Positions 8,365-25,406 of a stretch of DNA of 64,000 nt are shown here, piece after piece. The position numbers were made by a program, and so were the translations under genes. Position 1 is the stretch's first letter, and the number at the start of each line of letters is the position of its first letter. This stretch comes from Allobosea psychrotolerans (GTDB taxonomy: Bacteria > Pseudomonadota > Alphaproteobacteria > Rhizobiales > Beijerinckiaceae): assembly GCF_002917105.1 (NCBI RefSeq), contig NZ_PQFZ01000011.1:62001-126000 (forward strand), read 5' to 3'. The notes beneath the pieces were generated by a model that was given only the letters and a program-made list of their open reading frames with translations, made no database searches and was not told where the DNA came from.

Positions 8365-8376
8365 GGGTGGATGCAC

Positions 8377-9021
8377 ATGAACACACCCCCCACCCTCGGG
8401 CTGCTGCTGGCCGGTGGTCTCGCGCGCCGCATGGGCGGCGGCGACAAGCCGCTGCGGACGATCGCGGGCAGGACCATCCTCGCCCATGTCGTCGAGCGGC
8501 TCGGCCCGCAATGCGAAAGCCTGCTGATCAACGCCAATGGCGATCCGGCGCGCTTTTCCGATTACGGCCTGCCGGTCGTCGCCGACAGCGTGCCGGATTT
8601 CGCCGGCCCGCTCGCCGGCATCCTCGCCGGGCTCGACTGGATGGCGCAGCACCGGCCCGGATCGAGCTGGATGGTCAGCGTCGCCGCCGACACGCCCTTC
8701 ATCCCGCGCGATCTCGTCGCCCGCCTGCACCTTGCCCGCGCCGAGCTGAATGTTCCGCTTGCCTGCGCGGCATCGGGTGGCTGGATGCACCCCGTCATCG
8801 GACTCTGGCCGCTGGCATTGCGCGAGGAGCTGCGCCATGCGCTGACCGTCGAGGACGAGCGCAAGATCGACCGCTGGACGGCGCGCCATGGCTGCGCCGG
8901 CACGGAATGGCCGGTCGATCCGGTCGATCCGTTCTTCAATGCCAACCGGCCGGAGGATCTGACCGAGGCCGAGCGGCTTTTCGCTGGCCTGAACGACAAG
9001 GATCTTCAGCCCTCGTCCTGA
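8377..9021 (+). CDS. mobA: Molybdenum cofactor guanylyltransferase MobA
   Basis: MobA attaches GMP from GTP to molybdopterin to give the MGD form used by DMSO-reductase-family enzymes such as the formate dehydrogenase here. The N-terminal nucleotide-binding motif [18 protein letters not shown] is clear, followed by [11 protein letters not shown], the metal-binding aspartate region, and a C-terminal NANRPEDL motif typical of the family. The product has 214 residues from the ATG at 8377, which has a GGGGTGG stretch at suitable distance; an ATG two codons earlier is also possible. Confidence 0.92.
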
Positions 9022-10038: not shown

Positions 10039-11163
10039 TCACTCGATGACGATGCGGGGCGCCGCCCTGGCGGCGCCGCCGAGCCCCGCCTGCACCTGCC
10101 GCGCGATGGCGAGATAGGCCTTGGCATGGGCGCTGTCGGGGTCGCTGGCGACGATCGGGCGGCCGCCATCGGAGGTCTCCCGGATCGACATGGCCAGCGG
10201 CACCTCGCCGAGGAAGGGCACGCCGAGGCGTTCCGCTTCATGCCGCGCCCCGCCATGGGCGAAGATGTCGGAGCGGTGGCCGCATTCCGGGCAGATGAAA
10301 TAGCTCATATTCTCGACGACGCCGAGGATCGGCACCTCGACCTTGCGGAACATCGCGACGCCGCGGCGCGCATCGAGCAGCGCCAGATCCTGCGGAGTCG
10401 AGACGATGACGGCGCCGGCCAGCGGCGTCTGCTGCGCCATGGTGAGCTGCGCGTCGCCGGTGCCCGGCGGCATGTCGACCACGAGCACGTCGAGCTCGCC
10501 CCAGGCGACCTCGCGCAGCATCTGGGTGATGGCCGAGATCACCATCGGCCCGCGCCAGATCATTGGCGTTTCCTCGTCGATCAGGAAGCCGATCGACATG
10601 ATCTTGAGGCCATAGGCTTCCATCGGCGCGAGCGTGCGGCCCGAGATCAGCTTCGGCTTGCCGGTGATGCCGAAGATTTTCGGCACGGAGGGGCCGTAGA
10701 TGTCGGCGTCGAGCACGCCGACCTTGAGGCCGAGCACGCTGAGCGCCACAGCGAGATTGGCGGTCGTAGTGGATTTGCCGACGCCGCCCTTGCCGCTGGC
10801 GACCGCGATGATCTGCTTCACGCCGGGAACGCCGGCGGCCTTGGGAGGCGGCCCGCCCGGGCCGGGTGCGGGGCGATGCGCTTGCTGCCGTGCTTGCGCG
10901 GCTGCGGAGGCAGGCGCCTTGTCGGCGGTGAGGCCGACCAGCACCTGCGTCACGCCCGGCAGGCCGGAGACGGCGCTTTCCGCCTGTTTGCGCACCGGCT
11001 CCATCGCATCGGCCTCGGTCGCGTCGATGCCGATCGCGAAGATCACCTTGCCGCCGTCGATCAGGATGTTGTTGACGCGGCCGGAGGCTGAGAGCGATTG
11101 CCCGCTCGCCGGCAGCTTCACCAGTTCGAGCGCGCGCAGGATGTCGGCTTGGGTCAGGGCCAA
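10039..11163 (-). CDS. mrp: Mrp/ApbC-type iron-sulfur cluster carrier ATPase
   Basis: This 374-residue cytoplasmic P-loop protein is thought to deliver Fe-S clusters to apoproteins. The N-terminal MIP18/DUF59 domain (residues 1-85) is followed by a proline-rich linker (KAPASAAAQARQ onward) and the NTPase domain with the deviant Walker A GKGGVGKSTTTANL and the CPECGH motif whose two cysteines hold the bridging cluster. The start is TTG with GGAG eight bases upstream; there is no nearby in-frame ATG. The TusA-like gene ends 25 bases upstream and is probably cotranscribed. Confidence 0.92.
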   Translation of the reverse strand: MALTQADILRALELVKLPASGQSLSASGRVNNILIDGGKVIFAIGIDATEADAMEPVRKQAESAVSGLPGVTQVLVGLTADKAPASAAAQARQQAHRPAPGPGGPPPKAAGVPGVKQIIAVASGKGGVGKSTTTANLAVALSVLGLKVGVLDADIYGPSVPKIFGITGKPKLISGRTLAPMEAYGLKIMSIGFLIDEETPMIWRGPMVISAITQMLREVAWGELDVLVVDMPPGTGDAQLTMAQQTPLAGAVIVSTPQDLALLDARRGVAMFRKVEVPILGVVENMSYFICPECGHRSDIFAHGGARHEAERLGVPFLGEVPLAMSIRETSDGGRPIVASDPDSAHAKAYLAIARQVQAGLGGAARAAPRIVIE

Positions 11164-11522: not shown

Positions 11523-12797
11523 ATGCGCTCCATCGGTCTCGCCTGCCTCGGTCTTGCAATGCTTGCCGCACCCGTCCCCGCCCAGGAGCTGCGCGGCCAT
11601 GGCGGACCGGTGCGCGCGGTTGCGGTCTCGGCTGACGGGCAGTTCGCGCTGACGGGCTCCTTCGACCAGTCGGCGATCCTCTGGCGGTTGAGCACGGGCA
11701 GTGCCGAAAAGGTGCTGCGCTTCCACCGGGGCGCGGTCAATGCGGCTGCGACCGTGACCGGCCTCGGCTTCGCCACGGGCGGGGAGGATGGCCGCATCGC
11801 GCTCTGGCAAGGCGAGGCGAACGAGCCGGCGCGGGTGATCGAAGGGCATAAGGGGCCGGTTGCGGCGCTCGCGGTCTCGCCCGATGGCGCGAGCATCGCC
11901 TCTGCCTCCTGGGACGAGACGCTGCGCGTGACCTCGCTCGCGGATGGCTCCGTGCGCGTGCTGGAGGGGCATAAGGGGCCGGTGAACGGCGTCGCCTTCG
12001 CGCCCGGCGGGGCCGTCGTCAGTTCCGGCTACGACGCGACCTTGCGGATCTGGCCGGCGGGACGCGGCGTACCGAAGGTCATCATGCTGCCGGCACCGCT
12101 GAACGGCGTCGTGGTCGCGCCCGATGGCGAGATCGCGGTCGCTGCCGCCGATGGCAGGCTCAGGCTGTTCGGTCCGGAGGGCGAGGCCCGCGCCGAGATC
12201 GAGATCGGGCAGACGCCGTTGATCGCGCTGGCGCTTTCAGCCGATGGCGCGACGATCGCTACGGGCGGCCTGCGCGGGCAGGTCGCGCTGATCGAGCGCA
12301 GGACGCGCGCGATCCGGGCGACACTGCTCGGGCCCGGCTTGCCCGTTTGGTCGCTGGCCTTCCTGCCCGGTGGCGAGGAACTGCTTTCGGGCGGCGCGGA
12401 CCGGCTGGTCCGGCGCTGGAACGCGGTTACCGGCGAGCACATCGGTACTGTGGTTCCGCGTGCCGGCGCGGACGTGCTGGCGGCCTTCCAGGGCGAGCGC
12501 GGCGCGCAGCTCTTCCGCGCCTGCGCCGCCTGCCACACCCTCACCCCGGCGGACGGCAATCGTGCAGGGCCGACGCTGCATGGCCTCTTCGGGCGCAGGA
12601 TCGCGACCGCGCCCGGCTACGCCTATTCCGACGCCTTCAAGACGATGGACATCGTCTGGAGCAAGGAGACGGTGGCGAAACTCTTCGAGCTCGGGCCGAA
12701 TGCCTACACGCCGGGAACCAAGATGCCGGAGCAGACGATCGGCTCGGCCGAGGATCGGCAGGCCCTGGTGGAGTGGCTGGAGAAGGTGACGCGGTGA
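11523..12797 (+). CDS. WD40-repeat protein fused to a class I cytochrome c
   Basis: The 424-residue product begins with a Sec signal peptide (about residues 1-20, ending PVPAQ), so it is periplasmic. Residues 25-310 form WD40 blades, for example GHGGPVRAVAVSADGQ and GHKGPVNGVAFAPGG, seven by rough count. Residues from about 320 are a mono-haem cytochrome c with CAACH near residue 335 and a likely methionine ligand in TKMPEQ near residue 400. The fusion suggests an electron carrier that docks to a partner through the propeller. It stands alone between the tusA-mrp pair and the formate dehydrogenase block; partner unknown. Confidence 0.9.
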   Translation: MRSIGLACLGLAMLAAPVPAQELRGHGGPVRAVAVSADGQFALTGSFDQSAILWRLSTGSAEKVLRFHRGAVNAAATVTGLGFATGGEDGRIALWQGEANEPARVIEGHKGPVAALAVSPDGASIASASWDETLRVTSLADGSVRVLEGHKGPVNGVAFAPGGAVVSSGYDATLRIWPAGRGVPKVIMLPAPLNGVVVAPDGEIAVAAADGRLRLFGPEGEARAEIEIGQTPLIALALSADGATIATGGLRGQVALIERRTRAIRATLLGPGLPVWSLAFLPGGEELLSGGADRLVRRWNAVTGEHIGTVVPRAGADVLAAFQGERGAQLFRACAACHTLTPADGNRAGPTLHGLFGRRIATAPGYAYSDAFKTMDIVWSKETVAKLFELGPNAYTPGTKMPEQTIGSAEDRQALVEWLEKVTR

Positions 12798-12979: not shown

Positions 12980-15019
12980 CTACTGCAACGGATCCTCGCC
13001 CCGCTCGGCCCGCTCGCGCAGGTAATCGTCCGTGGTGCGCACCGGTGGGCGCTGCGGCGAGAGATGCGGGTCGAAGCTCTCATTGACGACGACCTCGACG
13101 CGGCAATCCTCGCACATCCTGATCACCGAGATGCGCTTGGCGGCGTCGCCCGAGAACATCCAGTGCTTGTTCTCCAGCTTGGCCGCGATCTTCTCGATCG
13201 TGCTCCTGACGCCGAAGGGTTTTGCGCAGTTGATGCAGTGGAAGGGTTCCTCCTGCTTCAGCACGCGCTTGCCGCCGGACCAGGCGTCGAAATCGATGCG
13301 CGGCTCCAGCGTGATCACCTTTTCCGGGCAGGTCGCGGCGCAGAGCCCGCATTGCACGCAAAGGTCTTCCTGGAAGGCGAGCGTCGGGCGGTCGGGATTG
13401 TCCGAGAGGGCCTGCGCCGGGCAGGCGGAGACGCAGGCCAGGCAAAGCGTGCAGCCCTCGCTATCGACATGGATCGTCCCGAAAGGGGCGAGCGGCGGCA
13501 TCGCCACGGCCGCGATCGGCGCCGGTGCGGCAGCGTGCAGTTCCCCGATCGTCTGGCGCAGCAATGGCCGGCCATCGCCCATCGGGCGGAAGCGGGCCGG
13601 CGTCGCGCCCGTCGTGCCGGGTGCGATCCGCGCCAACGCTTGCGCCAATTGGTCGGGGTCGTCGGTCTCGATCAGCCCGGCGCGGCCCTCGCCATAACCG
13701 AGCGCGCCTGCGAGCGCGTTGGCGTAGTCGAGATTGCGGGTCAGGCCGGAGAGGTCGTGCTTGGGTTTGGCACGGCCGAGCACACGGATGGCGCAGGCCC
13801 CGAAAGCCAGCGCCGCCGCATGGGTCTCGAGCCCGATCTGCGTGATCTCGTTGACGCGCAGCGGCAGCACGCGTGCCGGCAAGCCGTCGCCAAAGCGGGC
13901 GAGCGCGTCGATCAGCGCCTCGCCATGCTCGCCATCATGCAGCAGCAGCACGGCCTCGCGGCCGCCGGCCTCAGTATAGGTGGTCAGCAGGGTGCGCAGG
14001 CGGCGCAGCAGCGCGTCGGTCGGCGGCAGGGCGTAGGTCACGGCGCCGGTCGGGCAGACGGCCGCGCAGGCGCCGCAGCCGGCGCAGATCTCGGCCGAGA
14101 TCGCGACATGGTCGCCCGCTGGCGTGATCGCACCGGTCGGACAGAGCTCGAGGCAGCGCGTGCAGCCGGTCTTGGACGAGCGCGAATGGGCGCAAAGATC
14201 CTGATTCAGCCGGACGTAGGCCGGCTTGTCGAATTCGCCGACGAGATGGCTGGCCTGTCCGATCAAGCGCTCGACCGCCGCTTGGTCGCGCGGGTCGGCG
14301 CGCAGATAGCCGGCGCGCAAATCGCCGGCCGGGAAGAGCGGCGCGCCTCCGGATACATCGATGACGATGTCGCATTGCGAGTTCGCGCCGTTGCGCGCTT
14401 CGCCGAAGACGAGCTTGCTTCGCGAGGAGGGGGAGGGCGCGGCGTAATCGTTGACAGTCAGATCGAAGGCGCCAAGCCAGCCGGTCGCTGCGACGATCAT
14501 ACCCTTCAGCACCGGGATGTCGGAGACGCGCGGCGGCGTGATCTCGCCGGGCCGTGAGAGCAGGATGGTGACGTCGAGATGGTCTGCCAGCCTCTGCCCG
14601 ACCGAGAGCGCGACGTCGTCATGGCCATAGACCAGCGCCACGCCCTTGCTTTCCAGTGTGGTGAAGCTCGCCGGCGGCATCGGCTCGGCAGCGGCCGCCA
14701 GCAGAGCCGCCATTTTGGGGCCGGCCGACTTCGCCTCGCGCGCCCAGCCGCCGGTCTCACGGATATTGGCGAAGACGAGATCGCCGGAGTAGTCGAGGTC
14801 CGCAGCGATTTCCTCAAAAAGCGGGGCCTCCTGCGTGCAGCCGACGGTGATGGCGTCGCGCTCGCCGAGCAGCTTGGTGAAGATCTCCGTCTGCGTGCGG
14901 CAGAGATGCCGCGCCGTCCTGATTTCGCCGCCCTTGCAACCACGCGCCAGCGCCTCGCCATCGAGCGGCATGGTGTCCTCGCAGGAGCAGACCATCAGCG
15001 TGCGTGCGGTGCCGGTCAT
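12980..15019 (-). CDS. Polyferredoxin-like 4Fe-4S protein of the formate dehydrogenase cluster
   Basis: This large protein (679 residues) has no signal peptide or membrane span and is probably cytoplasmic. It starts with a CSCEDTM motif and further scattered cysteines, then has four ferredoxin motifs: CTRCLELCP (about 285), CAGCGACAAVCP (310), CTLCLACVSACP (523) and CVQCGLCAATCP (553). Two CxxC pairs follow, CINC (593) and CEDC (633). It is transcribed away from the fdh operon across a 138-base gap. Homologues sit next to DUF3305/DUF3306 and formate dehydrogenase genes in related bacteria. Electron transfer or cluster assembly for the enzyme is plausible but unproven. Confidence 0.85.
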   Translation of the reverse strand: MTGTARTLMVCSCEDTMPLDGEALARGCKGGEIRTARHLCRTQTEIFTKLLGERDAITVGCTQEAPLFEEIAADLDYSGDLVFANIRETGGWAREAKSAGPKMAALLAAAAEPMPPASFTTLESKGVALVYGHDDVALSVGQRLADHLDVTILLSRPGEITPPRVSDIPVLKGMIVAATGWLGAFDLTVNDYAAPSPSSRSKLVFGEARNGANSQCDIVIDVSGGAPLFPAGDLRAGYLRADPRDQAAVERLIGQASHLVGEFDKPAYVRLNQDLCAHSRSSKTGCTRCLELCPTGAITPAGDHVAISAEICAGCGACAAVCPTGAVTYALPPTDALLRRLRTLLTTYTEAGGREAVLLLHDGEHGEALIDALARFGDGLPARVLPLRVNEITQIGLETHAAALAFGACAIRVLGRAKPKHDLSGLTRNLDYANALAGALGYGEGRAGLIETDDPDQLAQALARIAPGTTGATPARFRPMGDGRPLLRQTIGELHAAAPAPIAAVAMPPLAPFGTIHVDSEGCTLCLACVSACPAQALSDNPDRPTLAFQEDLCVQCGLCAATCPEKVITLEPRIDFDAWSGGKRVLKQEEPFHCINCAKPFGVRSTIEKIAAKLENKHWMFSGDAAKRISVIRMCEDCRVEVVVNESFDPHLSPQRPPVRTTDDYLRERAERGEDPLQ

Positions 15020-15157: not shown

Positions 15158-15901
15158 ATGGCGGTGAATGTCCCGCGCCCTGACGATCTGCGGCGGGAGC
15201 CTGTCCTGCCGCCGGGCTTCTCGCTCGTGACCCTGCGCGAAGCCGGCGACGCCTTCGCCCATGCTCAGGCGATCGCCGCCGAGGCGGGGGCTGCGACGCT
15301 GGTCTGGGTGCGCCGCTTCGATATCGTCGAGTTCGCCGTGGTGCTGGAGCCAGACGTCGTGCTCGGCGAGGCGCGCCTCGCCCACTATCTTGCGATGAAT
15401 GCGCTGGCCGACGCGCTGGCCGTGCATTGTCCGCCGGAGCGGCCGGTCCTGTTCCGCTGGCCTGACGCGCTGATCTACGACCATGGCCTGATCGGCGGCG
15501 GGCGGCTCGCCTGGCCGCAGGGTTGCGGCGAGGGTGATGTGCCCGATTGGCTCGTCTTCGGCGCGATGCTGCGCGCCACCACCATGGCGCCCTTCGCGAT
15601 GGGGCAGACCGGCGTCGGCATGGCGGAGGAAGGTTTCGAGGAGGTCGATGCGGTCGATCTGATTGAATCCTTCGCGCGTCATCTCATGCTCGGCGTCACG
15701 TATTGGCAAAGCGATGGTCCCAAGGCCGCGGCCCGCCGCTGGCTCGACCGGCTCGACAAGGTCGTCGGCACCCGCCACGGCATCGAGGCGAATGGCGATC
15801 TCATCGCGACCTCGCAGAGCGGCATCGAGCGCCGGAGCCTGGTCGAGGCACTCGGCCGGGCCGACTGGCTCGACCGCGACAGCGGCGGGCCCAAGCTGTG
15901 A
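15158..15901 (+). CDS. Biotin/lipoate protein ligase-like protein, fdh accessory
   Basis: This 247-residue protein resembles the BPL/LplA superfamily (the BPL_LplA_LipB_2/DUF4444 group). The core stretch FRWPDALIYDHGLIGGGRL followed by PDWLVFGAML parallels the PND-lysine-GIN region of biotin ligases. By my alignment the catalytic lysine position is not a lysine, so a normal ligase reaction is doubtful. GGAGCAGGAGG precedes the ATG. It is the first gene of the operon leading to formate dehydrogenase, and its last bases overlap the next start (GTGA). The role in the fdh pathway is unknown. Confidence 0.75.
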   Translation: MAVNVPRPDDLRREPVLPPGFSLVTLREAGDAFAHAQAIAAEAGAATLVWVRRFDIVEFAVVLEPDVVLGEARLAHYLAMNALADALAVHCPPERPVLFRWPDALIYDHGLIGGGRLAWPQGCGEGDVPDWLVFGAMLRATTMAPFAMGQTGVGMAEEGFEEVDAVDLIESFARHLMLGVTYWQSDGPKAAARRWLDRLDKVVGTRHGIEANGDLIATSQSGIERRSLVEALGRADWLDRDSGGPKL

Positions 15902-16470
15902 GCGCACTCAGACTGCCGCGCGCCATCAGGCTCGACCCGTCGGACAGCTTCGTCTTCCGCCGCGCCGCCGAGCCCGGCGAATGGCTGGTGACCGGCTCCT
16001 TTCTGTTCGATCCCACCGGGATCGCGGCGCTCGACGCCAAGGGGCGCGCAGCCTTCCGCTCCGGCTTCCTCGGCATTGCGAGCTTCGGCTGGAGCACGCT
16101 GGCCGTGGTGAGCGAGGCGACGGAGGAGGAGCGCGAGGTCGCGATCGCGCAGCTCGCCGGCCATCTCGTCGCAAAACTCGGCGCGCCCGATCTCGCCATG
16201 GCGCGCGCTGCTGCGGCCGAGGAGGTCGCCTTCGCCGCCTCGCTCTGCGACCATCCGGCGCAGACGCTGATCGCCTTGCATCGCACTCTGGAGGATGGCG
16301 AAATCCGCGAGCGTTTCCGCACGCTCACCCCGCGCGGCGAGCAGGACGCTACGGGCTTCCGTGCCTTCGAATTTATGGAGGTCGAGGGCGAGGACGGGCC
16401 GCAGGATGAGGTCGACTTGCTGGCGCTCGGCAAGACGCCGGTATCGGGAAAGAAGACGGACGCATCATGA
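15898..16470 (+). CDS. DUF6505 family protein, fdh accessory
   Basis: This 190-residue cytoplasmic protein of unknown function starts with GTG overlapping the previous stop by four bases. The N-terminal part (RAIRLDPSDSFVFRRAAEPG) looks beta-rich, and the middle is helical and alanine-rich. It ends overlapping the next gene by four bases (ATGA), so translation is probably coupled. The family name is assigned from recall of the conserved gene order in Hyphomicrobiales fdh clusters, not from a search. No catalytic motif is seen. Confidence 0.65.
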   Translation: MSALRLPRAIRLDPSDSFVFRRAAEPGEWLVTGSFLFDPTGIAALDAKGRAAFRSGFLGIASFGWSTLAVVSEATEEEREVAIAQLAGHLVAKLGAPDLAMARAAAAEEVAFAASLCDHPAQTLIALHRTLEDGEIRERFRTLTPRGEQDATGFRAFEFMEVEGEDGPQDEVDLLALGKTPVSGKKTDAS

Positions 16471-17477
16471 TGCATTTCTGGGCGACCTCCGGCCATGTCC
16501 TGCTGGACCGCGCCGCCGGCGGCGGGCTCGTCGTCACCGATGATTTCCTCAAGGCCTATCTGGCGCGGCCGGAAGTGCTGCCGCCGGAGGAGGCCTGCGC
16601 GGATGAGCGCGCGTTGCACGCCAAGCTGATGGCGACGCCCCAGGCCGAGGTGGCGGCGGCCGAGATCGCAGCGATCGCAGACGAGGATGCCCGCGAGAAC
16701 TGGCGCTTCCTCATCGGCTGGCGCGACCGCTTGCTGGCTGCGCCGACGCTGGAGGCGGCTTATGCGCGGATCATCCGCGAGGGCGTCGCGGGCGTGCCGC
16801 CCTTGTTTCTAGACCAGCTCGTCCATGTCATCCTGCGTGGCGCGCTCGATGAGGTCGAGGATCCCTATGTGGTGCGCGCCGCCGAGTGCCTGTTCCGGCC
16901 GCAGCGCGTCACCCTGCACGAGAACACCATCCTGCTGGCCGATGCCGAGATCATTGAGGGCCATGAGGCGGATCGTCATGCCTCGCCCCTGCTCGCTATG
17001 CTGGGCGGTCCGGCCGTGACCTCGCTCGACATCCTCAAAGCCGCCAATGCCGAGCGCTATTGGCAGCGTTCGGACGGCTTCGACATGGTGCTCGATCTCG
17101 GCGGTTCGCCATCGGGGCGTGGGGCGCTGGCGGCGGCGCTGCGCCATTGGGTGCACGCCCTTCACGGTTTCGATGTCGCGATCGAGCCGATCGAGAACCT
17201 CAGGGATGCCGACTGGCGCTGGTTTGTCGGGCTCGATGCGCAGGCGACGGCGATCGGCAACGCGCTCTGGCAGGGCAAGAGCGTCGGTGAGCCGGAGCTG
17301 TCGCGCGTGCTGGCGCTCTACAGGATGACGTTGCCGCCCGATGTGCCGGTGTTGGCGGCGGCGCAGGCAAGGCCCATCTATCTCATCATGGCGATGTCGG
17401 CCGACAAGATCCTGCGCCTCAAGCCGCAAAATCTTGTGACCGGCCTGCCCCTGTCGGGCAACGCGATGACGAACTGA
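16467..17477 (+). CDS. DUF6352 family protein, fdh accessory
   Basis: This 336-residue protein of unknown function begins MMHFWATSGHVLLDR, a start I recall for the DUF6352 family found in formate dehydrogenase clusters. It is largely helical, with acidic stretches. A segment DEVEDPYVVRAAECLFRPQRV precedes a histidine/glutamate-rich part (HENTILLADAEIIEGHEADRH) that could bind metal, though this is speculation. It overlaps the preceding gene by four bases and is followed by DUF3305 after ten bases. Confidence 0.7.
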   Translation: MMHFWATSGHVLLDRAAGGGLVVTDDFLKAYLARPEVLPPEEACADERALHAKLMATPQAEVAAAEIAAIADEDARENWRFLIGWRDRLLAAPTLEAAYARIIREGVAGVPPLFLDQLVHVILRGALDEVEDPYVVRAAECLFRPQRVTLHENTILLADAEIIEGHEADRHASPLLAMLGGPAVTSLDILKAANAERYWQRSDGFDMVLDLGGSPSGRGALAAALRHWVHALHGFDVAIEPIENLRDADWRWFVGLDAQATAIGNALWQGKSVGEPELSRVLALYRMTLPPDVPVLAAAQARPIYLIMAMSADKILRLKPQNLVTGLPLSGNAMTN

Positions 17478-17487
17478 GGATCGCGAC

Positions 17488-18006
17488 ATGACGCAAGCGC
17501 ACATCGAGGTCGGGATCGTGGTCGAGCGGCGCGCGATCGATTCGCCCTGGGCCGACCATGCCTGGAGCCCGCTCGCCGTGCTGCCCGAGCCGCCGGCGCT
17601 CGCGCCCTGGACCGAACTTGCCAGCGAGCCCGGCCGGCGCAGCGTCTATCTCGGCCCGGCGACGCTGACGCTGCATTCGGTCGACACCGCGCATTTCCGC
17701 GAGAACTTCCAGACCGGCCGCGCCAAGCTCTGGGTCGCGATCCGGCCGACCGGGATCGAGCCCGAGCTGGATTTCGTCGGCGTCACCGCCGACCCGTTCG
17801 AGGGCGAGGTCTATGCAGAGAATGTCGGAGACATCGTCGAGGCCCTGCCGATGCCGGCCCTGATCGCCGAACAGGTGCTCGCCTTCTTCGAGGCGCATCA
17901 TGTCGAGCGCGAATTCATCAAGCGCAAGCGCAGCGAGCATGATCCGCGCAAGGGCGGCGGGCCGCGTCCCGAGCCGGGCCTGCGTCGGGGCGAGGGCGAG
18001 CGATGA
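17488..18006 (+). CDS. DUF3305 family protein, fdh accessory
   Basis: This 172-residue protein of the DUF3305 family has the pattern VGIVVERRAIDSPWADHAW near the N-terminus, then a beta-rich core, the segment NVGDIVEALPMPALI and a basic C-terminal tail (EFIKRKRSEHDPRKGGG). The family occurs beside formate dehydrogenase and DUF3306 genes. The biochemical role is unknown; the soluble nature and operon place it as an assembly or electron-transfer helper. Its stop overlaps the next start by four bases. Confidence 0.85.
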   Translation: MTQAHIEVGIVVERRAIDSPWADHAWSPLAVLPEPPALAPWTELASEPGRRSVYLGPATLTLHSVDTAHFRENFQTGRAKLWVAIRPTGIEPELDFVGVTADPFEGEVYAENVGDIVEALPMPALIAEQVLAFFEAHHVEREFIKRKRSEHDPRKGGGPRPEPGLRRGEGER

Positions 18007-18719
18007 GCCCGCGCGCAGGCGATCTCGACGAGGAAGGCTTCCTGACGCGCTGGTCGCGGCGCAAGCGCGCCGCGGCGGAGCAGGCCGAGGTTCTGCCGCC
18101 ATCGCCTGTGAGCGAAGCCCTGCCGGCGGAGGTTGAGCCGCAGGCCGACGCAGCTCAGCTCGAAATGGTCGAGCCGCCCTCGCTCGACCTGATCGACAAG
18201 GATTTCGACGTCGCCCACTGGCTCAAGCAGAACGTGCCCGAAAGCTGGAAGCTCGCGGCGATGCGGCGGGCCTGGGAGAGCGATCCGACGATCCGCGATT
18301 TCGAGAATCCGGCGCGCGACTATGCGCTCGACTGGAACACGCCGGGCGGCGCGCCGGGCTACGGCCCACTGACGGAATCGGATGATGTCGAGGCGATGGT
18401 GCGCGGCATCTTCGGCGACGCTCCGGAGCCCGGGATGGCCCTGTCGGATGTGGATAAGAGCGCCGGCGACAGCATGTCGCATGCACTTTCGTCGCATGAC
18501 GAAAGTCGCAAGTCTGACGCTGCGCTGCAAGATGAACAGCCTGCGGCGACCTCAGCCGGATCTGTCAGGGTGAGCGAGGCTGGCGCAAACCCGGTGGAAG
18601 AGGCTGAAACAGGCCGGATCGCGCCGGATCGAGTCTATGCTGCGGCGCAAAATAATCCTGAGCCGGATATGCGTTCCATGCGGATCCGCAAGCGCAGAGG
18701 CGGAGCCGTTCCAGTCTGA
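18003..18719 (+). CDS. DUF3306 family protein, fdh accessory
   Basis: This 238-residue protein of the DUF3306 family has a signature N-terminus EEGFLTRWSRRKRAA, followed by a proline/glutamate-rich linker and the conserved part IDKDFDVAHWLKQNVPESWK. The last 90 residues are low-complexity and probably disordered. It is always, in my recollection, the partner of DUF3305 in formate dehydrogenase clusters. It overlaps the DUF3305 gene by four bases. No enzymatic motif is visible; function unknown. Confidence 0.85.
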   Translation: MSPRAGDLDEEGFLTRWSRRKRAAAEQAEVLPPSPVSEALPAEVEPQADAAQLEMVEPPSLDLIDKDFDVAHWLKQNVPESWKLAAMRRAWESDPTIRDFENPARDYALDWNTPGGAPGYGPLTESDDVEAMVRGIFGDAPEPGMALSDVDKSAGDSMSHALSSHDESRKSDAALQDEQPAATSAGSVRVSEAGANPVEEAETGRIAPDRVYAAAQNNPEPDMRSMRIRKRRGGAVPV

Positions 18720-18805
18720 CCCTAGATTGGAATGCTTGTATTCTGGGGCGATAAGCGTTCATTATCACCGGATTGAAGCGGGCAGCGGCGAAGGAACGTC
18801 GCGCG

Positions 18806-19636
18806 ATGAGAGGAACGCCGCAAACGATGCGTGATCCGGCACTCGAGAGAGCAATCGGGGTTGCCGGCGGGGTGCGTGCATTGGCGCGCAGCCTGGGCGT
18901 GTCGCAGCCAGCGATCTCGAGCTGGAGGCGCGTTCCCGCCGACCGCGTGCTCTCCGTCGAAGCCAATACCGGCGTGCCACGCTCCGACCTGCGCCCCGAT
19001 CTTTATCCCATGGAGACCGCGCTGCACCAGCCCGCTTCGATGAACGGCGGTTCGTCGCTGGCGATCGATGAGATCGACGAGGCGCGCGCCCAGGAATACC
19101 AATTGATCGGAGCGCTGCTCTGGCGGGCGCCGACGGCCGAGACGCTGGCTGTTCTGCAAGGCCTGCGCGGTGACGCCTCGCCGCTCGGCATGGCCCATTT
19201 CGCCTTGGCCGAGGCCGCCGCCGAGCTCACGCCGGAAGCGGCGCGCGACGAATTCTTCGAACTCTTCATCGGCGTCGGCCGTGGCGAGATCCTGCCCTAC
19301 GCTTCCTATTACCTGACCGGCTTCCTGCATGAGCGCCCGCTGGCGCTGGTGCGCGAGGACATGGGCAGGCTCGGCATCGCCCGGGCCGAGCGCGCCGGCG
19401 AGCCGGAAGACCATATCGCCATCCTGATGGACATCATGGCCAACCTGATCCGCGGCGCCTTCGCGGGCGAGGGCGTCGATGCGGGCGCCTTTTATGCGCG
19501 CCATATCGAGCCCTGGGGCGAGCGCCTCTTCGCCGATCTGGAGGTCGCGAAGGCCTCGAAATTCTACCGGGCCGTCGGCCGTGTCGGCAGCCTGTTCCTG
19601 TCCATCGAGACGGAAGCCGGAAGGCTGCCGTCATGA
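18806..19636 (+). CDS. HTH-TorD fusion: Cro-like DNA-binding domain plus TorD-family chaperone
   Basis: TorD-type chaperones hold molybdoenzyme precursors and their Tat signals until the cofactor is inserted. Here residues from about 80 onward are the TorD domain (QEYQLIGALLWRAP; ARDEFFELFIGVGRGEILPYA with the family's YASYYLTG continuation). The first 60 residues are instead a Cro/YdaS-like helix-turn-helix: GGVRALARSLGVSQPAISSW and then RVPADRVLSVEANTGV. The chosen ATG has AAGGAACG upstream; total 276 residues. The gene precedes the small Tat protein and the catalytic subunit, so the chaperone could also control transcription, an inference. Confidence 0.85.
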   Translation: MRGTPQTMRDPALERAIGVAGGVRALARSLGVSQPAISSWRRVPADRVLSVEANTGVPRSDLRPDLYPMETALHQPASMNGGSSLAIDEIDEARAQEYQLIGALLWRAPTAETLAVLQGLRGDASPLGMAHFALAEAAAELTPEAARDEFFELFIGVGRGEILPYASYYLTGFLHERPLALVREDMGRLGIARAERAGEPEDHIAILMDIMANLIRGAFAGEGVDAGAFYARHIEPWGERLFADLEVAKASKFYRAVGRVGSLFLSIETEAGRLPS

Positions 19637-19671
19637 CGTCCGCCAGTCTGCCCGGCGCGGAGGAGGCGACG

Positions 19672-19875
19672 ATGTCGCAAAAGCCCAAAGAGACCGTGAC
19701 GCCGGCCTTCGACCGCCGCAGCTTCTTCAAGGCGCTCGGCGCCGGCGCGGCGGTGGCCGCGACGCCTGCCATGGTGACGCCGGCGGCAGCCGTCGATCCG
19801 GGCAAGGAAGAGACCAGGGCGCGCTACCAGGAGTCGGAGCACGTCAAGGACTACTACCGCGTCAACCGCTACTGA
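19672..19875 (+). CDS. Small Tat-targeted formate dehydrogenase region protein (TIGR02811 type)
   Basis: This 67-residue protein has a twin-arginine signal DRRSFFKALGAGAAVAATPA followed by a short charged tail ending VKDYYRVNRY. It matches the description of the formate dehydrogenase region Tat-target family TIGR02811. The ATG at 19672 is preceded by GGAGGAGGCGAC and is preferred over an in-frame ATG at 19633, which overlaps the TorD stop but would put 13 extra residues before the Tat motif. It lies 12 bases before the catalytic subunit gene. The function is unknown; it may escort or anchor the complex. Confidence 0.85.
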   Translation: MSQKPKETVTPAFDRRSFFKALGAGAAVAATPAMVTPAAAVDPGKEETRARYQESEHVKDYYRVNRY

Positions 19876-19887
19876 AGGCGCAACACC

Positions 19888-22869
19888 ATGCTCATCAAGC
19901 GCAAATCGGCCGATGTTCAGCGCGGCAAGCTCCGGGCCGCCATGGCGGGCCTGTCCTCGGGCGTGATGGACCGGCGCACCTTCCTGCGGCGCTCGGGTCT
20001 CGTCGCCGGCGGCGTCGCGGCCGCAAGCGCGCTCCAGATCGGCTCCGTCCGCAAGGCGGATGCGGCGGAGGGGCTGGGCCCGGCGAGCGGCACCAAGATC
20101 GTCAAGAACATCTGCACCCATTGCTCCGTCGGATGCACCGTCAAGGCCGAGGTCTCCAACGGCGTCTGGGTCGGCCAGGAGCCGGCCTGGGAAAGCCCGA
20201 TCAACCGGGGCAGCCATTGCGCCAAGGGCGCCTCGGTGCGCGAGCTGACGCATGGCGACCGCCGCATCAAATACCCGATGAAGCTGGTCGACGGGCAGTG
20301 GCAGCGCATCAGCTGGGATGTCGCGATCAGCGAGATCGGTGACAAGATGATGCAGATCCGGGCCAAGTCGGGCGCCGATTCCGTCTATCTGCTCGGCTCG
20401 GCCAAGTTCTCCAACGAGGGCGCCTATCTGTTGCGGAAGTTCGCCGCCTTCTGGGGCACGAACAATGTCGACCACCAGGCGCGCATCTGTCACTCCACCA
20501 CGGTTGCAGGTGTCGCGAACACCTGGGGCTATGGCGCGATGACGAACTCCTACAACGACATCCGCAACTCCAAGACGATCCTGTTCATGGGCTCGAATGC
20601 GGCCGAGGCCCATCCGGTCTCGATGCAGCACATCCTGAGCGGCAAGGAGATCAACCGCGCCAATGTCATCGTCTTCGATCCGCGCCTGACCCGCACGGCG
20701 GCGCATGCGACCGACTATATCCGCATCCGCTCCGGCACCGACATCGCGGTGATCTGGGGCATGATGTGGCACATCTTCAAAAATGGCTGGGAGGACAAGG
20801 ACTTCCTCGCCGCACGCGTCTACGGCATGGACGATGTCCGCAAGGAGGTCGAGAAATACGACCCCAAGACCGTCGAGGACATCACCGGCGTCCCCGAGGC
20901 GCAATTGAAGCGAGCCGCCGAGACCTTCGCCAAGGTCAAGCCGGCGACCTTCATCTGGTGCATGGGCGTGACCCAGCACTCGGTCGGCACGGCGAATGTC
21001 CGCGCGATCTGCAACCTCCTGCTCGCCACCGGCAATGTCGGCGGCATGGGCAACGGCGCCAACATCTTCCGCGGCCATTGCAACGTGCAGGGCGCGACCG
21101 ATTTCGGCCTCGATGTCTCGAATCTGCCTTGCTATTACGGGCTGGTCGAAGGCGCCTGGCGCCATTGGGCCCGCGTCTGGGGCGTCGATTACGACTATTT
21201 CGTCACGCGCTTCGATGCGGTGCCCGCCAAGGGCGGCCGCCCCGCCCGCACGGCCAAAGCCAATATGGAAACCTCGGGCCACACCTCGACGCGCTGGTTC
21301 GACGCGGCCAACATGCCCGCCGAGCAGGTCGACCAGAAGGACAATCTCAAGGCCATGATCGTCATGGGCCATGGCGGCAACACCATCCCGCGCATGCCCG
21401 ACGCCGTGAAGGGGCTGGAGACGCTCGAATTGCTGGTCGTGGCCGACCCGCACCCGACCAATTTCGTCTCGCTCGGCCAGCGCAAGAACGGCACCTATCT
21501 CCTGCCGATCGGCACGCAGTTCGAATGCTCGGGCTCGCGCACCTGCTCCAACCGCTCGGTGCAATGGGGCGAGAAGGTCGTCGATCCGATCTTCGAATCG
21601 GCCAATGACTACTGGGTCATCTACAAGCTGGCGCAGAAGCTCGGCTTCGCCGAACCGATGTTCAAGACGCTCGAGCTGGTGCAGGGCAAATACGGCCCGG
21701 AGCCCTCGGCGGAATCGATCCTGCGTGAGATCAACAAGGGCGGCTGGTCGACCGGCTATACCGGGCAGTCGCCCGAGCGCCTCAAGCTGCACATGCAGCA
21801 CCAGGACAAGTTCGACGTGGTCTCGCTGCGCGGCGCCAAGGGCTCGCCGGTCGAAAACGACTTCTACGGGCTGCCCTGGCCGTGCTGGGGTACGCCGGAA
21901 CTGAAGCATCCCGGCACGCATATCCTCTACAACACGGCGCTCGAGGCCAATAATGGCGGCGGCACCTTCCGCCCGCGCTTCGGCCTGACGCGCGAGCGCA
22001 CCTTGCCGGATGGCAGCAAGGTCAACGACACGCTGCTGGCCGAGAACGGTTCCTACTCGCTGAATTCGGAGATCAAGGACGGCTATCCTGAATTCACCAT
22101 GGGCATGCTGAAGAAGCTCGGCTGGGATCAGGACCTGACGCCGGCCGAGATCGCGACCATCACCTGGATCGGCGGCAACGCGGTCGACACGGTGAACTGG
22201 GCCAACGATCTGTCGGGCGGCATCCAGCGCGTCGCGCTCAGCCATGGCTGCGTGCCCTACGGCAACGGCAAGGCCCGCGCCAATGCCTGGAACCTGCCCG
22301 ATCCGGTCCCGACCCACCGCGAGCCGATCTACTCGCCGCGCGTCGATCTCGTGGCGAAATGGCCGGCGCGTCCTGACGAGCGGACTTTGCGCATCCCCAA
22401 CCTCCACACCACCATGCAGAAGGCGGCGGTGGAGCGCGGCGTCGCGAAATCCTTCCCGATCGTCCTGACCTCGGGCCGGCTCGTCGAATATGAGGGCGGC
22501 GGCGAGGAGACGCGCTCGAACAAATGGCTGGCCGAATTGCAGCAGGACATGTTCGTCGAGATCAACCCGGCTGATGCGACCGAGCGCGGCATCAAGGACG
22601 GCGCCTTCGTCTGGGTCTCCGGGCCGGAGAACAACGCCAAGGCCAAGGTCAAGGCGCTGGTGACGGAGCGCGTCGGCAAGGGCGTCGCCTTCATGCCCTT
22701 CCATTTCGGGGGCTTCTACCAGGGCGTCGACCAGCGCGGGAACTACCCCAAGGGGCTGGATCCGATCGTGCTCGGCGAGTCCGTCAACACCCTCACGACC
22801 TATGGCTACGACCCGGTGACCGCCATGCATGAAGGCAAGGTCACGCTCTGCCAGATCGCCGCGGCGTGA
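19888..22869 (+). CDS. fdhA: Formate dehydrogenase catalytic subunit (bis-MGD molybdoenzyme)
   Basis: This 993-residue periplasmic enzyme oxidises formate to CO2. A Tat signal (MDRRTFLRRSG, arginines 29-30) is followed by one [4Fe-4S] site, CTHCSVGC (Cys76, 79, 83) plus the later cysteine in GSHCAKGA. The active-site residue is Cys201 in ARICHSTTVAG, encoded by TGT, so this is a cysteine and not a selenocysteine enzyme; His202 follows. Further hallmarks are GSNAAEAHPVSMQHI and the C-terminal molydopterin dinucleotide-binding domain (LTSGRLVEYEGGG). Length and layout match the FdnG/FdoG class. The Fe-S subunit follows after 14 bases. Confidence 0.95.
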   Translation: MLIKRKSADVQRGKLRAAMAGLSSGVMDRRTFLRRSGLVAGGVAAASALQIGSVRKADAAEGLGPASGTKIVKNICTHCSVGCTVKAEVSNGVWVGQEPAWESPINRGSHCAKGASVRELTHGDRRIKYPMKLVDGQWQRISWDVAISEIGDKMMQIRAKSGADSVYLLGSAKFSNEGAYLLRKFAAFWGTNNVDHQARICHSTTVAGVANTWGYGAMTNSYNDIRNSKTILFMGSNAAEAHPVSMQHILSGKEINRANVIVFDPRLTRTAAHATDYIRIRSGTDIAVIWGMMWHIFKNGWEDKDFLAARVYGMDDVRKEVEKYDPKTVEDITGVPEAQLKRAAETFAKVKPATFIWCMGVTQHSVGTANVRAICNLLLATGNVGGMGNGANIFRGHCNVQGATDFGLDVSNLPCYYGLVEGAWRHWARVWGVDYDYFVTRFDAVPAKGGRPARTAKANMETSGHTSTRWFDAANMPAEQVDQKDNLKAMIVMGHGGNTIPRMPDAVKGLETLELLVVADPHPTNFVSLGQRKNGTYLLPIGTQFECSGSRTCSNRSVQWGEKVVDPIFESANDYWVIYKLAQKLGFAEPMFKTLELVQGKYGPEPSAESILREINKGGWSTGYTGQSPERLKLHMQHQDKFDVVSLRGAKGSPVENDFYGLPWPCWGTPELKHPGTHILYNTALEANNGGGTFRPRFGLTRERTLPDGSKVNDTLLAENGSYSLNSEIKDGYPEFTMGMLKKLGWDQDLTPAEIATITWIGGNAVDTVNWANDLSGGIQRVALSHGCVPYGNGKARANAWNLPDPVPTHREPIYSPRVDLVAKWPARPDERTLRIPNLHTTMQKAAVERGVAKSFPIVLTSGRLVEYEGGGEETRSNKWLAELQQDMFVEINPADATERGIKDGAFVWVSGPENNAKAKVKALVTERVGKGVAFMPFHFGGFYQGVDQRGNYPKGLDPIVLGESVNTLTTYGYDPVTAMHEGKVTLCQIAAA

Positions 22870-22883
22870 AGAGGAACTGAACC

Positions 22884-23480
22884 ATGGCCCGGATGAAATT
22901 CCTCTGCGACGCCGACCGCTGCATCGAATGCAATGCCTGCGTCACCGCCTGCAAGAACGAGAACGAAGTACCCTGGGGCATCAACCGGCGCCGCGTCGTC
23001 ACCATCAATGACGGCAAGCCGGGCGAGCGCTCGATCTCGATGGCCTGCATGCATTGTACGGACGCGCCTTGCATGGCGGTCTGTCCGGTCGACTGCTTCT
23101 ACAACACCGCCGACGGCGTCGTGCTGCACAACAAGGACCTCTGCATCGGCTGCGGCTATTGCTTCTACGCCTGTCCGTTCGGGGCGCCGCAATATCCCAA
23201 GGTCGGCAATTTCGGTTCGCGCGGCAAGATGGACAAATGCACCTATTGCTCGGGCGGCCCGGAGGTCGATCTCTCCCCGGCCGAGTTCCAGAAATACGGT
23301 TCGAACCGCCTGGCCGAAGGCAAGCTGCCACTCTGCGCCGAGATGTGCTCGACCAAATCGCTGCTCGCCGGCGACGGCGAGATCATCGCCCAGATCTACA
23401 AGGAGCGGGTGGTCAAGCGCGGCTATGGCTCAGGCGCCTGGGGTTGGCAGACCGCCTACAAGGAAACGATCGCCATCTGA
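22884..23480 (+). CDS. fdhB: Formate dehydrogenase iron-sulfur subunit
   Basis: This 198-residue electron-transfer subunit has four [4Fe-4S] motifs: CIECNACVTACKNE near the N-terminus, CMHCTDAPCMAVCP, CIGCGYCFYACP, and a last cysteine set in KCTYC with LCAEMCSTKS. It relays electrons from the catalytic subunit to the cytochrome b subunit. Unlike E. coli FdnH it has no C-terminal membrane anchor, so it is held by its partners. It has no Tat signal and probably crosses the membrane with the catalytic subunit. Its stop codon lies in the first base pairs of a dispersed repeat. Confidence 0.95.
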   Translation: MARMKFLCDADRCIECNACVTACKNENEVPWGINRRRVVTINDGKPGERSISMACMHCTDAPCMAVCPVDCFYNTADGVVLHNKDLCIGCGYCFYACPFGAPQYPKVGNFGSRGKMDKCTYCSGGPEVDLSPAEFQKYGSNRLAEGKLPLCAEMCSTKSLLAGDGEIIAQIYKERVVKRGYGSGAWGWQTAYKETIAI

Positions 23481-23644
23481 GCATGATGCCGAGAAATGGT
23501 CCCGGTTTTCGGGCGACATCATGCTCCGAGACGAATGAGCATGATGCCGAAAGGTGGTCCCGGTTTTCGACAACATGCTTCGTGAAGAACCAGCTCGGGG
23601 GAGGGACGCGTCTCGGCCGCAAGGTTGGGCGCGTTCCCCCGAGC
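23478..23644. repeat. Two GAGCATGATG repeats and a GC-rich hairpin between fdhB and the cytochrome subunit
   Basis: Copy one (23478-23526) and copy two (23536-23580) share TGAGCATGATGCCGA, then TGGTCCCGGTTTTCG, and end in inverted CATCATGCTC or ACATGCTT. A third structure follows at 23593-23644 with arms GCTCGGGGGA and TCCCCCGAGC. The set splits the fdh operon by 200 bases and could lower expression of the membrane subunit or mark processing sites. Confidence 0.75.
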
Positions 23645-23680
23645 AGGATGTCCGGTTCATCTCGCGAGAGGAATTTCGCA

Positions 23681-24688
23681 ATGCGTCTCGGCGCTCACCT
23701 TCGTCTCCTGGTCACCGGCCTGCTGCTGACCTTCGCTGTCGCGCTGGCGGTCCCGGCTTTCGCGCAGCAGGTCAACCCGACCGCGGACTCGGTCAAGGAG
23801 CAGCAATTCCTCGACGCCCTGAAGGCCGACCCTTCGGCCGAGCTCAAGGGCCGCATCACCATTCCCGACGGCAAGGCCGCCACGCTGGAGCGGCCCGCCG
23901 GGCGCGATTGGCGCGCCTTCCATCAGGGCACCATGGTCAAGGTCGGTGCCGTCGCGGTGCTCGGCATGCTGCTTCTGCTGGCGGTGTTCTACCTGGTGCG
24001 GGGCCGCATCCGGCTCGAGTCCGGCCTGTCGGGCCGCACGCTGACGCGCTTCAACGCCTTCGAGCGCTTCATGCACTGGCTGACGGCCGCGTGCTTTATC
24101 GTGCTGGCGCTGTCAGGGCTCAACGTCACCTTCGGCAAACTGCTGCTGCTGCCATTGGTCGGGCCGCAGACCTTCACCAATATCTCGGTCGTGGCGAAAT
24201 GGGCTCATAACTATCTCGCCTGGCCGTTCATGCTCGGCATCGCGCTGATGTTCGTCGTCTGGATCAAGGACAACATCCCCGGCATGGTCGATCTCCGTTG
24301 GCTCGCCGCCGGCGGCGGCATCGTCGGCAAGGGGCACCCGCCGGCCAAGCGCTTCAATGGCGGCCAGAAGATCATGTTCTGGACGGTGGTGGTTGGCGGC
24401 ACGGCGCTCTCGCTGTCTGGCCTCAACCTGCTGTTCCCGTTCTTCTCCGGCGGCGTGCTGGCCATGCAGTTCTGGAACGTGGTGCACGGCATCGTCGCCG
24501 TGCTGATGGTCGCCGCGATCATGGCGCATATCTATATCGGCACGATCGGCATGGAGGGTGCCTTCGACGCGATGGGTTCCGGCGAGGTCGATCTCAACTG
24601 GGCCAAGGCGCACCATTCGCTCTGGGTCGCCGAGGAGATGCGGAAAGGCCATGTTCCGGGCGCCCCGGCGCTGCAGCCGGCGGAGTGA
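23681..24688 (+). CDS. fdhC: Formate dehydrogenase cytochrome b subunit (gamma)
   Basis: This integral membrane subunit (335 residues) takes electrons from the Fe-S subunit and reduces quinone. A signal peptide (ends PAFAQQ) precedes a periplasmic region of about 70 residues, one membrane segment (VGAVAVLGMLLLLAVFYLV), then the four-helix cytochrome b core with haem-ligand histidine candidates in RFMHWLTA, WAHNYLAWP, VVHGIVAVL and MAHIYIGTIGMEGAFDAM, a signature of this family. GAGAGG precedes the ATG at 23681. The gene ends the operon; a tandem repeat and a terminator follow. Confidence 0.94.
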   Translation: MRLGAHLRLLVTGLLLTFAVALAVPAFAQQVNPTADSVKEQQFLDALKADPSAELKGRITIPDGKAATLERPAGRDWRAFHQGTMVKVGAVAVLGMLLLLAVFYLVRGRIRLESGLSGRTLTRFNAFERFMHWLTAACFIVLALSGLNVTFGKLLLLPLVGPQTFTNISVVAKWAHNYLAWPFMLGIALMFVVWIKDNIPGMVDLRWLAAGGGIVGKGHPPAKRFNGGQKIMFWTVVVGGTALSLSGLNLLFPFFSGGVLAMQFWNVVHGIVAVLMVAAIMAHIYIGTIGMEGAFDAMGSGEVDLNWAKAHHSLWVAEEMRKGHVPGAPALQPAE

Positions 24689-24831: not shown

Positions 24832-24868
24832 TTTGGAGACCGGCTTTTGTTTGGAGACATGGCCTTCG

Positions 24869-25393
24869 ATGCGCGTGATCGGTCTGGCGGGATGGAGCGG
24901 AGCGGGCAAGACGACGCTGCTGACGCGATTGATCCCGGAACTCGGCCGTCGCGGCGTCGGCGTCTCGACGCTCAAGCACGCCCATCATGCCTTTGATCTC
25001 GACACGCCCGGCAAGGATTCCTACGCGCATCGCCAGGCCGGCGCGCGCGAGGTCTTGATCTCCTCGGAGCGACGCTGGGCGCTGATGCGGGAGTTGCGCG
25101 GCGAGCCGGAGGCGAAGCTCGGCGAATTGCTCGGGCGGCTGTCGCCGGTCGATCTCGTCATCATCGAGGGCTTCAAGCGCGACCCGCACGCCAAGATCGA
25201 GATCTATCGCGTGGCCAACGGCAAGCCGCCCTTGCATCCCGACGATCCAAGCATCGTGGCAGTTGCGAGCGACAGCGCTTTTCCCGAAGCGGGCCGTCCG
25301 GTGGTTGCTCTCGACGACATTGCGGCAGTTGCCGATATCGCATTGGCGGCGGCCGAGCCGCTCGCTGCCGTGCTGGCGCGGCGACAGGGGTAA
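24869..25393 (+). CDS. mobB: MobB, molybdopterin-guanine dinucleotide biosynthesis adaptor
   Basis: This 174-residue P-loop GTP-binding protein assists MobA in making bis-MGD. Walker A is GWSGAGKTTLL, with the MobB-typical STLKHAHHAFDLDTPGKDS and the VDLVIIEGFKRDPHAKIEIYR segment that follows in the family. The ATG at 24869 gives the usual MobB N-terminus (MRVIGLAGWSGAGKTT). It follows the fdh terminator and precedes moeA by 13 bases, so mobB-moeA form their own unit. Confidence 0.93.
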   Translation: MRVIGLAGWSGAGKTTLLTRLIPELGRRGVGVSTLKHAHHAFDLDTPGKDSYAHRQAGAREVLISSERRWALMRELRGEPEAKLGELLGRLSPVDLVIIEGFKRDPHAKIEIYRVANGKPPLHPDDPSIVAVASDSAFPEAGRPVVALDDIAAVADIALAAAEPLAAVLARRQG

Positions 25394-25406
25394 GGGTGAG
25401 GACGTC

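Follow-up and report, generated by a model that had tools for sequence, protein, structure and literature searches.

The 64,000-nucleotide window analyzed here (positions 62,001-126,000 of contig NZ_PQFZ01000011.1, in the 6.39 Mb genome of Allobosea psychrotolerans, assembly GCF_002917105.1) holds, next to the genes of a periplasmic formate dehydrogenase (FDH), a block of five genes at 15158-18719 encoding BPL2 (BPL_LplA_LipB_2, PF16917) and members of DUF6505, DUF6352, DUF3305 and DUF3306. Our reading, to which we give a probability of roughly two in three, is that their products belong to a two-layered cytoplasmic assembly kit that is dedicated to FDHs of the type of Shewanella oneidensis SoFdhAB and acts before export. 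An assembly role in general appears well supported by the comparative evidence, while the specific roles given below are proposals; the five genes are good candidates for as yet unknown steps in building this enzyme. The set consists of a core pair, DUF3305 and DUF3306, usually together with a polyferredoxin-like gene and torD, plus an add-on of the three remaining genes.

By searching an identical set of 200 Pseudomonadota genomes for each family, we found FdhA of the window's type (E<=1e-150 against the window FdhA, a limit set by us) in 22 genomes belonging to 15 genera. DUF3305 and DUF3306 were each found in exactly these 22 genomes and were absent from the other 178 (Fisher 8.9e-30). DUF6505 occurred in 15 and DUF6352 in nine genomes, all within the 22. 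PF16917 was found in 120 genomes, and 14 of these, again all within the 22, had matches above the line of 165 bits that we set for the FDH-linked type of BPL2; this line is fairly safe given the gap between 165 bits and the next match, a canonical ligase at 96 bits. Among the 22 positive genomes, DUF6505 was missing in seven, the FDH-linked BPL2 in eight, DUF6352 in 13 and all three in six. Strict co-occurrence of all five families with this FDH type, the check put forward with the original prediction, thus holds for the core pair (22 of 22, 0 of 178), while the other three accompany only 15, 14 and nine of the 22 enzymes, so that the single five-gene unit assumed there gives way to a pair that looks obligatory and three genes that look optional. 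Frequent occurrence of the families without any FDH, which had been named as the finding that would speak against the idea, was not seen, as neither the pair nor DUF6505, DUF6352 or the FDH-linked BPL2 was detected outside the 22. In a wider sample DUF3305 was present in 42 of 289 Alphaproteobacteria, and all eight loci read among those 42, picked partly for long frames, contained FdhA.

Gene arrangement was read in 21 fdh stretches, fetched from the 22 positive genomes besides the window, and in 80 named loci, the best 80 of at least 552, which were fetched by DUF6505 and are biased to close relatives. DUF6352 was found in 80 of the named loci, DUF3305 in 77, DUF3306 in 73, BPL2 in 76, the polyferredoxin in 75 and FdhA in 68; the contigs of the 12 loci without FdhA end shortly after. 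Of the 46 named loci longer than 20 kb, 43 hold all seven genes, and the other three are without a BPL2 match. TorD and the polyferredoxin were each seen in 20 of the 21 fdh stretches. The add-on trio is absent from genome families f34 and f36, which have the core only, whereas f14 and f38 show the order polyferredoxin-Mrp-BPL2-DUF6505, without DUF6352. One further genome, G111, is without the trio and retains FdhA, FdhB, polyferredoxin, DUF3305, DUF3306 and TorD. Because its FdhA groups with those of G035 and G159 (99/98 support) inside a trio-bearing clade of the FdhA tree (21 rows), and because its operon order also differs, the trio was most simply lost there as a set, with transfer or an assembly gap as the alternatives.

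Plasmids also carry these genes: DUF3305 was found on 88 plasmid records (e.g. NZ_CP019316.1), 61 of them from Pseudosulfitobacter or Sulfitobacter. It is thus plasmid-borne in some Rhodobacterales, and the fdh island can therefore move.

Such mobility, along with the absences of the trio members among the 22 FDH genomes, would fit an explanation in which BPL2, DUF6505 and DUF6352 are co-inherited with the island by linkage and have an unrelated job. We regard this hitch-hiking as improbable, since no member of the trio was found without this FDH in the 200 genomes, even where DUF6505 or DUF6352 is unlinked. In G016, which has no FDH-linked BPL2, DUF6352, DUF6505 and DUF3305 lie at three distant places and the genome still has this FDH, and in G019 DUF6352 is situated 2.8 Mb from DUF3305. 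The neighbors of these unlinked DUF6505 and DUF6352 copies, whose frame starts were inspected by eye, gave no clue. Hitch-hiking is also at odds with the four-base overlap of DUF6505 and DUF6352, found at 54 of 70 junctions in the named loci, in which start codons were chosen by script.

The cellular location of the products was approached with a simple scan for the twin-arginine (RR) motif of the Tat export pathway and for hydropathy above a limit of 1.6, no signal-peptide predictor being used. With 68 to 77 proteins scanned for each of the five families, no family showed the Tat motif and between zero and five members of each passed the hydropathy limit, while the RR motif was present in all 58 FdhA sequences. 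The five proteins are thus most likely cytoplasmic and would meet FdhA before its export, which favors pre-export assembly over the other option in the original prediction, an electron-routing module that ties the periplasmic FDH to an acceptor such as quinone, a cytochrome or cytoplasmic ferredoxin. Electron routing would draw on a redox-active polyferredoxin, as judged from its sequence, and on the proximity of FdhC (cytochrome b subunit; named by position and sequence, in an open frame at 23054-24688 on the plus strand with an approximate start) and of a gene fusing a WD40 propeller to a cytochrome c domain. None of the five has a redox-cofactor family match, however, and the polyferredoxin, which has a hydrophobic N-terminus in none and a Tat motif in one of 67 proteins, is unlikely to contact exported FdhAB, which makes electron routing a very unlikely role for the block. 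The WD40-cytochrome c gene itself, at 11523-12797 in the window, lies near fdh in 49 of the 80 named loci, and its product is a possible periplasmic electron acceptor.

The enzyme served by the proposed kit was predicted to be a cysteine-type periplasmic FDH, which agrees with its Tat signal and with the motif RICHSTTV, containing the Cys ligand, in 21 of 21 aligned FdhA sequences, from which G019, truncated at the end of its locus, was excluded; no in-frame stop was present in any of the 22 matches. FdhA (19888-22869, plus strand) and the iron-sulfur subunit FdhB (22884-23480, plus strand) have chains A (E 0) and B (E 1.2e-99) of 9vap as best PDB matches. This entry is S. oneidensis SoFdhAB, reported to be a Cys-W, oxygen-tolerant enzyme that can carry out direct electron transfer (PMC13397495). 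The published residue numbers were carried over with an offset of one residue, the sole offset in a scan from -20 to +20 that places the four published residues in three rows of family f36, whose genomes appear Shewanella-like by gene order. At the corresponding positions 653, 666, 776 and 927, the window FdhA has His, Ala, Tyr and Thr. His653 and Tyr776 are present in 21 of 21 aligned sequences and Thr927 in 11, and both oxygen-protection residues, Tyr776 and Thr927, occur in the window enzyme, which thereby resembles oxygen-tolerant SoFdhAB as far as the alignment can tell.

According to the original prediction, the five proteins must do something beyond the Escherichia coli assembly route, and the distribution of FdhE agrees with this. 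FdhD was found in all 22 positive genomes, whereas FdhE_N (PF04216) was matched in none of them, the window's own genome included, and by none of the five proteins. The idea that the add-on trio replaces FdhE was ruled out, as FdhE is absent also from genomes without the trio.

In the assembly kit that we propose, of which we infer every biochemical step and physical contact, MobA, MobB and MoeA would make the cofactor and FdhD would sulfurate it. The core layer, i.e. DUF3305, DUF3306, the polyferredoxin and TorD, would then act on unexported FdhA-FdhB. Within this layer the DUF3305-DUF3306 pair may take the job that FdhE has for the E. coli enzymes, namely to hold or check the catalytic subunit once it is loaded with cofactor and before its Tat export, while the polyferredoxin, with Mrp in some lineages, could supply iron-sulfur clusters or keep them reduced. 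The add-on layer of BPL2, DUF6505 and DUF6352 would constitute an additional helper, present in many Alphaproteobacteria as well as in some other lineages, often with DUF6352 missing; here the ligase fold of BPL2 would be non-catalytic and act as a binding platform.

The BPL2 protein of the window has a solved relative in PDB 3bfm (E 1.7e-88), described as a 'biotin protein ligase-like protein of unknown function', and its profile matches BirA (E 1.4e-05), placing it in the ligase domain family. The catalytic Lys and the GRGRxG loop, which we take to be the hallmarks of active ligases, were then seen in 15 canonical relatives. All 15 canonical relatives carry the Lys, but none of 86 FDH-linked BPL2 proteins does, and in 85 of 85 the alignment shows gaps where the GRGR loop would be. 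A catalytic biotin or lipoate ligase was consequently rejected, and BPL2 is by its sequence a pseudo-enzyme of the ligase fold.

For DUF6505 and DUF6352, AlphaFold models (pLDDT, predicted local distance difference test, 85.1 and 90.8; pTM, predicted template modeling score, 0.74 and 0.89) gave no Foldseek match at E<=0.001, and the best VIA Z values were 2.6 and 4.3; lack of a confident match for these predicted structures does not amount to a new fold. A PDB sequence search returned only chance-level rows for DUF6505, DUF6352 and DUF3306 and none for DUF3305. Homology among the five was rejected for the pairs DUF3305-DUF6505, DUF3305-DUF6352 and DUF6505-BPL2, with profile-profile probabilities of 0.1, 0.2 and 3.0. 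DUF3306 has a poorly conserved middle and a conserved N-terminal RWSRRK-like motif. An alignment of 21 polyferredoxin orthologs, that of the window and those of 20 genomes other than G016, shows four cluster motifs with 16 Cys, of which 15 are invariant and the 16th (C315) is kept in 16 sequences; a C-terminal CxxC pair has all its four Cys in 21 of 21. Between the polyferredoxin and BPL2, families f14 and f38 (L090-L093, L097, L100, L101) carry a homolog of the Mrp/NUBPL iron-sulfur ATPase, a position that suggests a dedicated cluster carrier.

A connection to cofactor synthesis appears in DUF3305, which matches the second half of NCBIfam NF011058 (MobA, DUF3305 domain-containing) with E 4.3e-16, far below the cut-off. 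In G243 MobA ends immediately ahead of DUF3305. In G412 and G313 the two lie in one frame with a single stop between them, and the model spans both. A true fusion was rejected: 0 of 256 genomes reached the NF011058 cut-off, and the eight loci read for DUF3305 had no such fusion.

Searches for a known role gave little, in line with the original prediction. No family of known biochemical role was among the Pfam matches of the five proteins, and none of them matched the NarJ/TorD-type PF02613 at E<=1, TorD being a separate neighboring gene. DUF6505, DUF6352 and PF16917 were named in no paper found, and apart from Bay et al. 2015 (PMC4464133) the literature on DUF3305 and DUF3306 yielded PMC7160927, apparently unrelated. 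Titles and abstract openings on fdh, polyferredoxin-TorD, 3BFM and SoFdhAB included none on the function of these proteins.

Downstream of the core pair, the window encodes TorD fused in one frame to a Cro/YdaS-like helix-turn-helix (HTH) domain (18806-19636, plus strand; Pfam YdaS_toxin 3.1e-13, Nitrate_red_del 6.3e-26), a fusion found in 52 of the 70 loci with TorD. The block was thought to run into this gene, but the connection is not tight, as 86 bases separate DUF3306 from its likely ATG at 18806 (its frame has a first TTG at 18773). Situated in this gap is the 17 bp palindrome GATAA-N7-TTATC (18750-18766), a probable operator by its sequence and the sole strict match in the window. With the pattern NATAR-N7-YTATN, which was derived from the same loci and in which four or all five of the arm bases had to pair, a palindrome was identified between DUF3306 and HTH-TorD in 47 of 50 measurable regions, the window included, and 33 of these have perfect arms. 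None of 15 regions whose TorD is without the HTH had one, and shuffles averaged 0.24. Four loci outside those that defined the pattern (L082, L085, L088, L200) all carry the palindrome with one arm mismatch. HTH-TorD loci totaling 915 kb contain 34 perfect palindromes, 32 of which lie within 400 bases upstream of HTH-TorD. Another palindrome, T(A/G)GAA-N3-TTC(C/T)A, was noted between DUF3306 and TorD (L111, L112, L143). It occurs in 25 of 49 HTH-TorD regions, as against none of the 15 others and 0.015 for shuffles, is absent from the window, and has what we take to be a resemblance to the rhizobial iron-control (Irr) box.

From the adjacent DNA-binding domain and the conserved operator-like palindrome, as well as the mostly poor conservation of DUF3306, one could argue that the five sense or protect the FDH, e.g. 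with respect to proteolysis or transcription, and insert neither cofactor nor clusters. This we find unlikely, given that the Pfam scan found no DNA-binding, protease or sensor family above cut-off in the five and that a purely regulatory role would hardly have been kept in all 22 genomes and 15 genera.

HTH-TorD may be a self-regulating chaperone, i.e. a chaperone-repressor, and the assembly reading can tentatively be extended on this basis. In this extended form, which is possible and which we would rather doubt than adopt, the genes form an FdhE-independent maturation line for oxygen-tolerant Cys-type FDHs: DUF3305-DUF3306 and the four-cluster polyferredoxin would be an obligate station for loading and proofreading, the pseudo-ligase and the two proteins of unmatched fold a second station, and HTH-TorD a feedback repressor. 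Free HTH-TorD would bind its operator, which lies between the accessory block and fdhA, and would be removed by FdhA precursor that is still unloaded, or the reverse, so that FDH transcription tracks the assembly state. If true, an HTH-TorD acting at its own operator would couple enzyme assembly to gene expression in an unusual way.

Several points weigh against the assembly kit as proposed. Co-occurrence alone cannot separate assembly from regulation or stability, and all support is comparative. Adjacency is not universal, with no polyferredoxin in the G016 stretch and no TorD in that of G047, where FdhA lies just outside the stretch, and with DUF6352 unlinked in G016 and G019 and DUF6505 in G016. 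In three Aurantimonas loci (L109, L126, L180), DUF3306 lies on the opposite strand, away from DUF3305, which also speaks against strict coupling. The exclusion of FdhE is borderline with respect to chance, FdhE_N occurring in 24 of the 200 genomes and zero overlap with the 22 having P = 0.051, and PMC2535785 lists an fdhE gene for S. oneidensis. SoFdhAB has been expressed and its structure solved (PMC13397495), the accessible part of that paper stating neither host nor helpers, so an active enzyme without DUF3305 and DUF3306 is possible. The lack of a MobA-DUF3305 fusion at the curated cut-off belongs here as well.

The gene block itself is as originally described, with coordinates, Pfam matches and junctions in agreement. 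All five genes are on the plus strand and above the Pfam cut-off: BPL2 (15158-15901, E 4.7e-51), DUF6505 (15898-16470, with a GTG start, E 2.9e-56), DUF6352 (16467-17477, E 6.5e-64), DUF3305 (17488-18006, E 5.9e-30) and DUF3306 (18003-18719, E 9.3e-12, and by alignment). They are joined by three four-base overlaps and, between DUF6352 and DUF3305, a 10-base gap. Four-base overlaps are frequent in bacterial operons and alone are no proof of a complex, so that the fixed stoichiometry or complex once read from them does not follow, the less so as the five genes split into a pair and three others. In the named loci such an overlap joins DUF3305 to DUF3306 at 56 of 62 junctions, DUF6352 to DUF3305 at 21 of 74 and BPL2 to DUF6505 at 16 of 66, a 7-base gap being found at 25 of the latter. 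Upstream on the minus strand lie the divergent neighbor encoding the 679-residue polyferredoxin-like core protein (12980-15019, Fer4 domains) and an Mrp/NUBPL-type iron-sulfur carrier ATPase (10039-11163, Pfam E 8.9e-105). A small Tat-signal protein of TIGR02811 type, FdhX by position (19633-19875, plus strand; 44.2 bits, just under the cut-off of 48.45), lies between HTH-TorD and FdhA. The classical helpers are all present, as predicted. In addition to TorD, Pfam matches identify, all on the plus strand, the sulfurtransferase FdhD (7360-8181, E 1.3e-72), a MobA-like guanylyltransferase (8371-9021; NTP_transf_3 8.7e-36, and the MobA part of NF011058 with E 9.0e-65), MobB (24833-25393, E 1e-49) and MoeA (25404-26660, MoeA_N 1.9e-45).

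These findings bear on the maturation of periplasmic FDHs without FdhE. SoFdhAB-type enzymes are wanted for CO2 reduction in air (PMC13397495), and the survey names a minimal set for co-expression, i.e. polyferredoxin, DUF3305, DUF3306 and TorD, kept apart from the optional trio.

Compared with known systems, the operons most like the one in the window are those of PMC4464133, which combine a TorD-family chaperone, DUF3305, DUF3306, a 4Fe-4S protein, a small Tat protein and FDH subunits. For TorD/DmsD-fdhGHI operons the association with DUF3305, DUF3306 and fer4 was published there, with a figure of 60% for dmsD-fdhGHI operons, so the core of what was predicted to be an undescribed system is already in print; the part that keeps this description is the trio, and no mention of BPL2, DUF6505 or DUF6352 was seen in the accessible text of that paper. 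Added here are the obligate tie in the sample, the nesting of the add-on within the core, the pseudo-ligase, the lack of an FdhE match and the probable operator. That paper further calls DUF3305 and DUF3306 putative membrane proteins, whereas here the hydropathy limit is passed by five of 74 DUF3305 and none of 68 DUF3306 proteins, and it gives FdhD/E in 97% of TorD-fdh species, at odds with FdhE in 0 of 22. In a published array, Shewanella SO4504/SO4505 go down along with fdhA, fdhD and the iron-sulfur gene (PMC2535785), and gene order suggests that these two are the DUF3305 and DUF3306 genes. As in the E. coli FdhD/FdhE route for FDH-N and FDH-O (PMC10609526), helpers would act before Tat export, and FdhD is shared; unlike that route, neither the 22 genomes nor the five proteins have an FdhE_N match. 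BPL2 shares the fold family of BirA and LplA, without their catalytic Lys and GRGR loop. The window FDH differs from SoFdhAB by the Ala at the Val666 position, and the Shewanella-like f36 genomes differ from the window in having no add-on trio, while in its Cys ligand, its best PDB matches and its His653, Tyr776 and Thr927, the window enzyme is like SoFdhAB.

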